Source: Arthrobacter bambusae
GTDB lineage: Bacteria > Actinomycetota > Actinomycetes > Actinomycetales > Micrococcaceae
Direction of reading: 5' to 3'
DNA: 64,000 bases
Assembly: GCF_022606295.1 (NCBI RefSeq)
Contig: NZ_JAHHZS010000004.1
Location: 62,001 to 126,000, forward strand
The notes under the pieces are model-generated. The model saw only the letters and a list, made by a program, of their open reading frames with translations, was not told the origin of the DNA and ran no database searches. Both the position numbers and the translations under genes were made by a program. Shown piece after piece: positions 48,045-50,475 of the stretch. Numbering within the stretch: the stretch's first letter is position 1; every line of letters begins with the position of its first letter.

Positions 48045-49632
48045 GGCGTTCGCCGTCGCCTTGCGTGGAGCTCACTGAGTCGCGGGGAGTTCCGGAGGTG
48101 TCGCGCCCGGATTGCGGCTCGCGCCCGGAACGGTCCTCAGCGGAGTTCACCTCAACGCGCCGCCAGGGGAGCACCGAGGCCGTCGGATTCTTGAGGTCCA
48201 CCCGAAACCAATCCTTCGCGCCATCGAACAGGCCACCGTGGGGATCGTCCACACCCTGGACCCGGAGGGGATCAAGGTGTGGATCCCAGATGTCCCATGC
48301 AACCCTCAACATCAAATATGCCGTTACGGCCATATGCAGCACCACGGCCATGACGTAGTACGGCATATCGATGTTGTTCTGCGCCGCCCCGCCGCTACTG
48401 ACCTGACCCAGATACATCCAGGTGGCAGCCCAATGCAACGCCTCAGCTGCCTGCCAGACCAGGAAGTCGAGCCAGCGGGGTCTGGCCAATGCCAGCAAGG
48501 GCACCAGCCAGAGCACATATTGCGGGGAATAGACCTTATTGCTCAGCACGAAGGCTGCCACGATCAGGAAGGTCAACTGGGCAAGCCGCGGGCGCCGCGG
48601 CGCCGCCAATGCCAATACGGCAATCAGAACGCACGCAAGGAGGAACATGTCCATCGCCAAGGCATTGATGGCGTCGGGGCCAAGTTTGGCCAGTCGGAGG
48701 CGTTCGGCAACGAGGTTATACGCGAACCACAAGGAGCTGTACCCCGCGGGGCGATCACGGGTGTAATCGAAAAAGTAGCGCCAACCGGCTGGGTTGATGG
48801 CCGCGATCGGGACGTTGACTGCCAGCCAAGCGACCGCGGCTGACACGGTGGTCACAAAGAAGCCCCGCAGGCGGCCGCTTCGCAAGGCGAGCAGGAGGAT
48901 CGCGCCGAGGATAAGCAGCGGATAAAGCTTGGTGGCCGTTCCGAGGCCGATGAACAGGCCCGCCATGACGAGACGGTCCTTCGAGAAGAAGTACATCCCC
49001 ACGGCGAGCATGGCAACTGCCCACATGTCCCAATTAATGACTCCGGCCAGGACAATCCCGGGCGCGAGGGCCACCATTGCCGCATCCCAAGGCCGGCGAC
49101 GATTGATGCGCGCGGTAGCCAGAACCACCACGATCCACATGGCCGCAATCAGGGTGGCGTTCACGTCGAAGTAGCCCAGGATCCGATCGGGGGTGGCGCC
49201 ATGGCCCGGGACCAACCGTGCGGTAGCACCGGCTATCAGCCCGATGATCACCGGATATTCGAACATGCTTTTCGGATCAAGGAACGGGAAGACGCCGTCG
49301 GCGAAGCCCCTGCTGCTGAAAAGTTCGGGGAAATCCGAGTAGCAGGTGGCATAGAACTGCTGTGGGGTGTGCCAGCCGTTGACGCGGCAATAGCCCTTGA
49401 TCATGATCGACACGATGGCGGCGACGATCGTGAGGATGACCAGGACCCGCTCCACGGTGAAGAATCCGGGGGAGATGGCCCCGGGGGAGGACCGCCGTCC
49501 GAGGGGTCCCCCGATCAACTCGGTGAAGTTCCTGAGCAAGTAATCACTACGGCTGGGAACCACAAAGCGCGCACGCTTTTGCTGGATGTGCGGCTTTGTC
49601 TCCTGCATGGAATCGAGCTTACCTTCAGGCAC
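48037..49632 (-). CDS. GT87-family mannosyltransferase-like membrane protein
   Basis: The 531-residue protein has about ten membrane helices and the DUF2029/GT87 pattern, with FEYPVIIGL in the first luminal region, GLGTATKLYPLL and NKVYSPQYVLWLVPLLAL. GT87 enzymes use polyprenyl-phosphate-mannose to extend cell-envelope glycans in actinobacteria. The GTG at 49632 has GGAGG eight bases upstream and is chosen over longer frames. Three small ORFs with strong ribosome binding sites lie upstream. Confidence 0.88.
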   Translation of the reverse strand: MPEGKLDSMQETKPHIQQKRARFVVPSRSDYLLRNFTELIGGPLGRRSSPGAISPGFFTVERVLVILTIVAAIVSIMIKGYCRVNGWHTPQQFYATCYSDFPELFSSRGFADGVFPFLDPKSMFEYPVIIGLIAGATARLVPGHGATPDRILGYFDVNATLIAAMWIVVVLATARINRRRPWDAAMVALAPGIVLAGVINWDMWAVAMLAVGMYFFSKDRLVMAGLFIGLGTATKLYPLLILGAILLLALRSGRLRGFFVTTVSAAVAWLAVNVPIAAINPAGWRYFFDYTRDRPAGYSSLWFAYNLVAERLRLAKLGPDAINALAMDMFLLACVLIAVLALAAPRRPRLAQLTFLIVAAFVLSNKVYSPQYVLWLVPLLALARPRWLDFLVWQAAEALHWAATWMYLGQVSSGGAAQNNIDMPYYVMAVVLHMAVTAYLMLRVAWDIWDPHLDPLRVQGVDDPHGGLFDGAKDWFRVDLKNPTASVLPWRRVEVNSAEDRSGREPQSGRDTSGTPRDSVSSTQGDGERHG

Positions 49633-49645
49633 GGGGCGCTCCTCC

Positions 49646-49723
49646 CTAAGCCCCCGCTTTAAAGGGCGGAAGCCCACGCGTAGCCGCGCGGGCTTCCGGG
49701 GCGAACGGTCCGATGTGTGCCAT
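49646..49723 (-). CDS. Candidate 25-residue peptide ORF ahead of GT87
   Basis: An ATG with GGAGG at 5-nt spacing opens a 25-codon frame that starts MAHIGPFAPEARAATRG and ends FKAGA. Its TAG stop is followed at once by the GGAGG of the GT87 gene. The peptide has four basic residues, no cysteine and no membrane helix. It may be a leader peptide whose translation couples to GT87, or a true product. Confidence 0.55.
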   Translation of the reverse strand: MAHIGPFAPEARAATRGLPPFKAGA

Positions 49724-49755
49724 CAGTCCCTCCTGTAGTGCAGTGGTGGGGACAC

Positions 49756-49896
49756 TCAGCGGATGATGCCCATTTGATGCAGGACGACGTAGACGTCTTC
49801 CCGGCGTTGATCCAACAGTTGTCCGTTGAAGAGGGTCTTGTCTTTGACGACGGGCTTGCTGTTGAAGACCATCAAGTCCCTGAGGCGCTTGGCCAA
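49756..49896 (-). CDS. Candidate 46-residue basic peptide ORF
   Basis: A TTG preceded by AAAGGAGG at 7-nt spacing opens a 46-codon frame starting MAKRLRDLMVFNSKPVVKD and ending VLHQMGIIR. An ATG at 49944 is in frame, but the ribosome binding site lies within that extension, so the TTG is favoured. The peptide has many Lys/Arg residues and could form an amphipathic helix. No family is recognised. It lies on the strand of GT87, 32 bp upstream of the next small ORF. Confidence 0.65.
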   Translation of the reverse strand: MAKRLRDLMVFNSKPVVKDKTLFNGQLLDQRREDVYVVLHQMGIIR

Positions 49897-50239
49897 GGGT
49901 TCACCTCCTTTCGTTATTGAAGAGAATTGCCGGAATTCAGGCATGACAATTAAGCCCCCTGAATTCGAAGAAAACAGCGGCGGAATTAGGCGCGTGAATG
50001 CCAGGCAATGAGGGGTGGATTAAGCGGATTTCTCGAACGACCGTGTCCGTACCGGAGCATGGAACTCCGATAGGGGTATCCAGGGGCAGCCGTCCCCAAC
50101 AAGAAGCTGGTTCCGAACTATGAGGAAACTGCGCACCACGTCAATCGCGTGATACCGCTCAATGGCAGGCCCAACTCGGAGCCTGATTGCCCCTTGATCA
50201 GCCCTGAAACATCAGGGGGAAGAAGGAAATCAGGAGAAG
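49897..50239. other. Low-GC spacer between small ORFs
   Basis: About 340 bp with no strong gene. An inverted repeat with arms GAATTCAGG (49933-49941) and CCTGAATTC (49958-49966) lies just before the 46-residue ORF. A CCTGA/TCAGG hairpin occurs near 50203-50216 downstream of the 26-residue ORF and may be a weak terminator or attenuator. A 24-codon frame from an ATG near 50061 has only a poor ribosome binding site. Confidence 0.45.
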
Positions 50240-50320
50240 TTAGGCCGCAGGACGGCGTCGAACAGCGAAGGCCGGGGTGCCAGCAACGGTCATCTTCCAT
50301 CCGCTAGTCAAAGTAATCAT
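50240..50320 (-). CDS. Candidate 26-residue peptide ORF
   Basis: An ATG preceded by AAAAGGAGG at 8-nt spacing opens a 26-codon frame starting MITLTSGWKMTVAGTP and ending VRRRPAA. The ribosome binding site is among the strongest in the window. Composition is basic with a hydrophobic middle. It resembles no family I know; a RiPP-like precursor, a signalling peptide or a regulatory leader are all possible. Together with the ORFs at 49896 and 49723 it forms a small-peptide group. Confidence 0.6.
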   Translation of the reverse strand: MITLTSGWKMTVAGTPAFAVRRRPAA

Positions 50321-50345
50321 TTTCCCAACCTCCTTTTCTGTTTTG

Positions 50346-50376
50346 GCGCTACCGCAGATGACTGACTGGGTAGCGC
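50346..50376. promoter_or_regulatory. Hairpin upstream of the 26-residue ORF
   Basis: GCGCTACC (50346-50353) and GGTAGCGC (50369-50376) are perfect arms with a 15-nt spacer, 26 bp before the ORF's ATG. The AT-rich stretch beyond it (50405-50475) probably holds the promoter. It could be an operator or a leader hairpin. Confidence 0.45.
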
Positions 50377-50475
50377 ACGCCTCAATCCCGGCAGATTGCT
50401 CTGGGATCAAAAATAAAGTTACACCATGAATCGCACTGTTGACCAGCCAATTACAAACAATTTAGAAATTAATTC

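Follow-up and report, generated by a model that had tools for sequence, protein, structure and literature searches.

Three short open reading frames, here called P1, P2, and P3, lie on the minus strand of the window (the whole stretch of 64,000 nucleotides of Arthrobacter bambusae DNA that was analyzed), in a unit bounded by a histidine phosphatase gene (HP; 51060->50476, minus strand; Pfam His_Phos_1, E = 4e-45) and a GT87 glycosyltransferase gene (Pfam GT87, E = 1.3e-12). An earlier note, made from the letters of the window alone, had described three frames with strong GGAGG-type ribosome binding sites in a region of reduced GC content and several inverted repeats. This description holds: each frame has such a site 5 to 8 nt before its start, GC content in 200-base windows is 0.45 to 0.58 across 49.7 to 50.6 kb, compared to mostly 0.59 to 0.71 in the flanks, and there are inverted repeats, of which the longest at short range (49667-49698) is a terminator-like stem within P3. 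A second dip in GC content, to 0.545, lies outside the unit at 52.5 to 52.7 kb. Comparison between loci shows the region to be an autonomous, structured unit in which one small frame is constrained as a protein. The anatomy assigned to it, comprising P1, P2, P3, hairpins, and terminator (Table 1), is well supported by the same comparison, with promoter, transcription start site, and terminator being putative.

Table 1. Predicted features of the unit and of the adjacent GT87 start
Feature	Position	Strand	Description
P1	50320->50240	minus	ATG start, 26 codons; leader ORF MITLTSGWKMTVAGTPAFAVRRRPAA; SD AAAAGGAGGTTGGG
P2	49896->49756	minus	TTG start, 46 codons; small protein; SD GAAAGGAGGTGAA
P3	49723->49646	minus	ATG start, 25 codons; SD CAGGAGGG; reads through terminator stem
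Putative -10 (TAACTT) of the unit's own promoter	50416..50421	minus	TANNTT at a fixed place before H1
Hairpin H1 (GATCCC...GGGATT)	50384..50408	minus	Probable 5' end of the RNA; co-varies, 54 loci
Hairpin H2 (GCGCTA...TAGCGC, inner stem)	50346..50376	minus	Two-sided changes in 8 of 10 modelled pairs
P1 Shine-Dalgarno (SD) arm GGAGGTTGGG	50324..50333	minus	Near-invariant, 54 loci; predicted to pair with 50267-50276
Anti-SD arm CCCGGCCTTC within P1	50267..50276	minus	10-bp duplex; between-genus co-variation with SD arm
Element E2 CATAGTTCGGAACCAGCTTCTTGTTGGG, P1-P2 spacer	50095..50122	minus	Recurs in congeneric loci
Element E3 hairpin GAATTCAGG...CCTGAATTC, loop CTTAATTGTCAT	49933..49966	minus	Inverted repeat
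P2 SD GAAAGGAGGTGA	49901..49912	minus	12 nt matching the 16S 3' end
Intrinsic-terminator-like stem, then CCCTTT	49667..49698	minus	14-bp stem
-10-like TAAGCT of GT87 (neighbor, outside the unit)	49616..49621	minus	TANNNT near ATG

Distribution of the unit

When 59 relatives were searched at the DNA level, 36 genomes contained the region, i.e., the window's own and 35 of 36 congeners, and none of 22 genomes from other families contained it. The P1 pattern with fixed spacing occurred in 44 of 395 family genomes, all of them among the 77 of the window's genus (0 of 318 others). P1 and the P2 frame are present in the same order in all 54 distinct congeneric loci (duplicates L031, L038, L043, L054, L057, and L058 having been dropped), a proportion that is not an unbiased presence rate, since a match to the region or to P1 was the basis on which loci were gathered. 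A search of 245 family genomes with a P2 profile recovered 17 of 18 congeners, all four members of genus g40 (E of about 1e-4), and no other genome. The frames are conserved in relatives, so the absence that the earlier note had named as evidence against its reading was not found.

The stretch downstream of HP was read in 16 other genera (74 loci) and contains P1-like frames in 39 loci, P2-like frames in 31, and at least one of the two in 44. Counted by genus, 12 of these 16 have P1 and P2 and one has P1 alone; neither frame was found in g30, g41, or g45, and occurrence is patchy in g29, g49, and g52. Five loci (L134, L141, L150, L153, and L155) have P2 without P1 at the SD cutoff used. In the window's genus the unit thus appears to follow HP, as it does in a patchy manner elsewhere in the family, and named relatives carrying it belong to Arthrobacter, Paenarthrobacter, and Pseudarthrobacter. 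Occurrence outside the family is unsupported: the P1-P2 pair was absent from all 20 HP loci taken, from 10 families, out of 39 other-family HP places, and the single strong-SD frames in L260, L262, and L266 were judged unrelated.

Neither P1, P2, nor P3 matches a Pfam or NCBIfam family, in line with the earlier note, which knew of no family for the peptides. Rfam gave no match at gathering score in the window or in 13 loci, and the four matches from a relaxed scan of the region were all far below gathering scores; a known riboswitch was rejected on the absence of matches at gathering score. A plasmid origin is likewise unsupported, as the whole region gave no match when compared with plasmids. 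Literature searches by locus, taxa, or mechanism produced no paper on this locus among the matches listed.

P1 and the structured 5' part of the RNA

P1 has two differently constrained parts. Codons 2 to 8 have a pS of 0.000 and a pN of 0.090 (1,431 pairs), and from codon 9 onward pN/pS is 0.67 (77 close pairs) to 0.95 (1,155 pairs); the start is thus held as nucleotides and the tail barely as protein. As judged from these substitution patterns, P1 is mostly RNA, its start being constrained as nucleotides rather than amino acids.

A 10-bp duplex can form between the SD arm GGAGGUUGGG (50333-50324) and CCCGGCCUUC (50276-50267) within P1. Within the genus, 96.5% of cells in this SD/anti-SD helix are paired and changes are one-sided only. 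Between genera both arms change, from UUGG/CCGG in the window's genus to UUGC/GCAG in g40, with GGCCACG and CGUGGCC as the arms in g50, and GGAGGCC and GGCCUCU, in a different reading frame, in g49. Pairing of each locus's own arms was compared with that of swapped arms after removal of row and column effects, using 300 draws for the per-genus version. With one locus per genus (13 genera), the median z was −3.5 (P = 0.002), and with 26 distinct arms P was 5e-5, P1 sites in the other genera having been hand-picked from a candidate list that favored strong SDs. The control region beyond P1 gave a z of +1.1. Own-locus pairing was also favored for a control arm upstream of the SD (z = −2.55; P = 0.01), a signal that we tentatively attribute to the same helix reaching further (in the window, AACAG opposite CUGUU). 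Two g34 loci, L127 and L179, noticed only after the first of these tests and with frames ∼0.8 kb from HP, have P1-like frames with SD/anti-SD duplexes of 9 and 11 bp (P = 0.008 and 0.002), namely, GGAGGCGAG with CUCGCCUCC and GGAGGCGAAGA with UCUUCGCCUUC; including g34 (14 genera), z was −4.1 and P was 0.002. L182, which has no GGAG before its P1, was left out of the pairing tests, and the near-copies L132 and L153 were excluded from these and from P2 set A4. The P1 sites of L137 and L158 are >1 kb from HP, and the 59- to 60-codon frames of L163, L164, and L173 are doubtful.

In single loci, with the first GGAGG used, SD pairing exceeded that of shuffles at P ≤ 0.05 in 60 of 91 cases but in none of those from g28 (0/7), g53 (0/8), g49 (0/2), or g50 (0/1). 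The predicted probability that the P1 SD is unpaired has a mean of 0.10 and a median of 0.04, compared to a mean of 0.19 when the downstream part is shuffled, and the SD is predicted to be less accessible than in its own shuffles in 42 of 54 loci; the P1 AUG is placed in a loop (0.81 unpaired). The hallmark of a leader with a sequestered SD, namely, an SD held in a conserved, co-varying hairpin, is therefore seen between genera and is supported by predicted accessibility. The suggestion of the earlier note that the frames include leader peptides is borne out to the extent that P1 behaves like a leader ORF, and its further proposal of control over GT87 and a FAD oxidoreductase is considered below.

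A TANNTT hexamer occupies a fixed position just before H1 in the congeneric alignment, and TAACTT in the window is a putative −10 element by the consensus for such elements. The 26-pair structure comprising H1, H2, and the SD helix was set by hand from L007; RNAalifold on a MAFFT alignment missed H1 and H2. This structure has 65 two-sided cells, against 21.0 ± 3.9 in shuffled alignments and at most 16 when slid, and a covariation score of 0.195 versus 0.144 in shuffles, with two of five measures not above shuffles (two-sided pairs, 11 versus 9.5; pair types, 30 versus 30.7). All two-sided changes within the genus fall in H1 and H2 and none in the SD helix; those in H1 affect three of its six modelled pairs (54 loci). 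A role for one H1 strand as an anti-anti-SD was rejected by eye, as the pairing fits some loci and is broken in others.

The spacer between P1 and P2 has a median length of 327 nt in the 54 congeneric loci, and C exceeds G in every one of them (median C/G ratio of 1.33, for the spacer measured alone). E2 recurs in 18 of 54 loci with ≤3 mismatches and no gap; some 14 further loci have it, as judged by eye, if a small insertion is allowed. The best-scoring candidate for the E3 motif lies 51 to 62 nt upstream of the P2 start codon in 36 of the 54 loci and 46 to 47 nt upstream of it in 4; a −35 or −10 promoter role for E3 was rejected, as no consistent partner hexamer was seen by eye. Three g40 loci (L078, L079, and L080) have an extra ORF between P1 and P2 (MIIVAFDDP... 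in L079 and L080), whose stop overlaps the P2 start (ATGA), which suggests translational coupling.

The silence of synonymous sites in P1 codons 2 to 8, the co-varying 5' hairpins, the recurring E2 and E3, and the combination of 5' hairpin with terminator would also be expected of a transcript acting mainly in trans, or as a dual-function structured RNA, with P1 a relic or accessory and with the P1 start and the E2 and E3 loops as contact sites. We regard this explanation as rather unlikely: P2 is constrained as a protein, P1 keeps its start, SD, and open frame wherever it was counted as present, and no target is known.

P2, P3, and the neighboring GT87 gene

The earlier note had proposed synonymous/nonsynonymous ratios as a check on the frames, and these favor P2 as a protein and not the P1 tail. 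The pN/pS of P2 is 0.22 in 101 close pairs and 0.62 over 1,218 pairs with far-diverged synonymous sites, and P2 appears to be a real, previously undescribed small protein. There is an in-frame ATG upstream, at 49944, but the strong SD serves the TTG; across the 54 congeneric loci, the P2 start codon is ATG in 34, TTG in 16, and GTG in 4. This SD is unusually long, with 12 nt that match the 16S 3' end, and it is also mostly paired in prediction (unpaired mean of about 0.19 to 0.20; 52 loci). P2 proteins of other genera have 36 to 48 residues. Their N terminus is mostly basic, the middle frequently resembles D..RI...R[DE], and the majority end in [IL][RK], so that a related C-terminal pattern extends across genera. 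In four loci (L007, L018, L023, and L024), P2 has an in-frame N-terminal extension from a GTG ∼57 nt after E3, and a second strong SD precedes the usual start. L052, in which a GRA tandem repeat is inserted in the variable region of P2, was left out of set A3.

When 36 P2 members were compared with Pfam, NCBIfam, PADLOC, and PDB, isolated weak matches were the only result. Two of the 36 (set A4) match phrog_35516, of unknown function, with a best E of 5.4e-4, which is a weak lead; the P2 proteins of the window and of L118 had no match by tblastn against phages, and a phage origin is unsupported. AlphaFold returned a low-confidence helical model of P2 (mean pLDDT, 63.9; pTM, 0.30).

The earlier note had also suggested a peptide signaling or antimicrobial system or RiPP-like precursors. 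P1 tails are indeed small, basic, and variable, as would be expected of secreted signaling, antimicrobial, or RiPP precursor peptides, but no signal peptide or double-glycine motif was seen by eye in P1 or P2, and the loci read have no maturation, export, sensor, or immunity gene as a consistent neighbor, the adjacent genes being HP and variable ones. The conserved part of P1 is constrained as nucleotides and not as amino acids, so a conserved peptide leader is lacking and there is no sign of a RiPP or a signal, and the loose constraint on the P1 tail described above also speaks against such peptides. A RiPP precursor or antimicrobial peptide was rejected on these grounds, and we hold the whole class of secreted peptides to be very improbable.

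P3 starts 24 to 45 nt (mode, 30) before the GCCC of the GC-rich stem, and a short U run follows the stem in most loci. Of 33 congeneric loci, 30 have P3 in phase with the stem, and the figure is 37 of 44 when 11 rows from other genera are added; counted by genus-by-distance class, phase is kept in 9 of 14 classes against about 4.7 expected, which is moderate support. Outside the genus, 12 of the 31 P2-bearing loci were used (those with a P3-like frame, plus L178, less L124), of which L178 gave no row. Fifteen of the 54 congeneric loci have the hairpin and no P3 start by rule (L033 has one by eye), six have no hairpin by rule, and in several loci the stem directly follows P2. The stem consensus, with three mismatches allowed, has a single match in the window's genome. 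In L015, L041, L044, and L055, P3 continues in frame through the terminator into the GT87 start. Suppression of an intrinsic terminator by a gene that ends a short way upstream is reported for tR2 (PMC4824070).

In 40 of 44 loci the in-frame stop of P3 comes >12 nt after the stem, and in no locus does it precede the stem end. This position would suit an ORF truncated by its terminator (nonstop) that reports on ribosome rescue, like arfA or brfA, and would make the unit a translation-stress gene. We consider this unlikely, given the 15 congeneric loci with a hairpin and no P3 start by rule, the fall in phase support when classes are counted, the stop within 8 nt of the stem in three loci, and the length of P3, which is too short for an ArfA-like factor.

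GT87 lies behind the unit in 50 of 54 congeneric loci, the exceptions being L005, L009, L013, and L050, in which it was not found within roughly 1.5 kb, and behind 13 of 31 P2-bearing loci from other genera (g39, g40, g49, and six of seven in g47). It was not found in the 0.75 to 1.5 kb behind the other 18, and in six GT87-less loci the next long frame is of four kinds: a family-4 type glycosyltransferase (g52 and g53), formate-tetrahydrofolate ligase (g29 and g38), an ABC transporter (g46), and, by a weak match, a trypsin-like protein (g28). Conversely, GT87 occurs without the unit: in congener G163 (L275), GT87 with its −10-like hexamer directly follows HP and the whole unit is absent, representing either a natural deletion or the ancestral state, and GT87 likewise stands without the unit in g45 (L117). 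Of 80 family genomes, 73 carry a relative of GT87 (E ≤ 1e-60), and only 3 of 26 GT87 loci from other genera lie behind HP within 1.5 kb.

GT87 may also have a start of its own. TAAGCT ends 7 nt before the ATG at 49608, and TANNNT lies 5 to 9 nt before the ATG in all 50 congeneric loci in which GT87 was located; by a looser rule, a candidate −10-like hexamer is found in 16 of 26 GT87 loci from other genera. The upstream GTG/VPEGKLDS extension of GT87 overlaps this hexamer. The GT87 start is probably the ATG at 49608, not the upstream GTG, and translation probably uses a leaderless mRNA whose 5' end is this ATG.

These observations bear on the proposal that P1, P2, and P3 are leader peptides and that the stem at 49667-49698 serves as an attenuator, acting in cis on GT87 (and on the FAD oxidoreductase). 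The frequent position of GT87 after the unit and the in-phase overlap of P3 with the terminator, as in pyrL-type attenuation, favor it. Nevertheless, there are units with no GT87 found behind them in the stretch read and GT87 genes without the unit, so the unit is probably not a GT87 leader, and the hexamer beside the GT87 ATG and the rarity of GT87 behind HP in other genera point the same way. Control of GT87 and the oxidoreductase, the remaining part of the leader-peptide suggestion, is consequently not supported, as GT87 was not found within 0.75 to 1.5 kb behind every unit; we consider it quite improbable, and the unit is probably not a GT87 control region.

Proposed mechanism and its parallels

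We give roughly an even chance to the reading in which the region is a self-contained unit of ∼0.7 kb made up of a structure-gated P1 leader ORF, an mRNA for P2, and a translated terminator (P3). The comparison places the co-varying hairpins at the start of the RNA and the P1 start within a hairpin whose stem holds the SD, the other arm being P1's own codons. With this hairpin closed, ribosome loading at the 5' end would be low, and Rho or decay would have access to the C-rich spacer. The hairpin might be opened by an excess of free ribosomes, by temperature, or by an unknown RNA or protein, whereupon P1 would be translated, the RNA spared, and P2, the functional product, made. Ribosomes on P3 would then meet the terminator and either reduce termination or end on RNA without a stop codon. 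Gating by P1, exposure of the spacer to Rho or decay, and an influence of P3 on termination or rescue are thus inferred. A more far-reaching version, to which we assign only a small chance, is that of an autonomous, family-wide sensor of translation status, in which the self-sequestered start of P1 would measure ribosome loading, a near-perfect SD would drive synthesis of P2 as a new small effector protein, and P3, translated into the terminator, would tie transcript ending or ribosome rescue to translation.

Parallels with several known systems are partial. In erm-type translational attenuators, a leader ORF precedes a gene whose SD is hidden in a hairpin. They share with the unit a short 5' ORF, an SD held in a hairpin, and a strong SD, but the SD hidden there is that of the downstream gene, whereas here the leader's own SD is predicted to be hidden by its own codons, and no antibiotic-methylase gene was seen downstream of the unit in the loci read. 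The Escherichia coli pyrBI leader, pyrL, is translated through an intrinsic terminator stem, and P3 likewise runs through an intrinsic-terminator-like stem; unlike pyrL, however, the unit has no fixed downstream operon, and P3 closes a separate unit as its final ORF. The arfA and brfA mRNAs are of the nonstop type, with the terminator or 3' end inside the reading frame. This property is shared by P3 as far as sequence can tell, but P3 has only about 25 codons, and the conserved protein of the unit is P2, not P3. Peptides of the ApdA/SecM type are arrest peptides (PMC7897499). Like them, P2 has a variable N terminus and a more conserved C terminus ending at the stop codon. In contrast to them, P2 has no RAPP/RAPG or SecM-like motif by eye, and no protein-export gene was seen downstream of the unit.

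This analysis adds a small-protein family and a structured RNA of many Micrococcaceae, for which the RNA and protein family libraries searched gave no convincing match, and it suggests a corrected start for GT87. If the anatomy works as proposed, the unit would combine an ORF that hides its own SD with its own codons and a frame in phase with an intrinsic terminator. If true, this would permit sharp genetic tests of the coupling between translation start and transcription end in high-GC Gram-positive bacteria.
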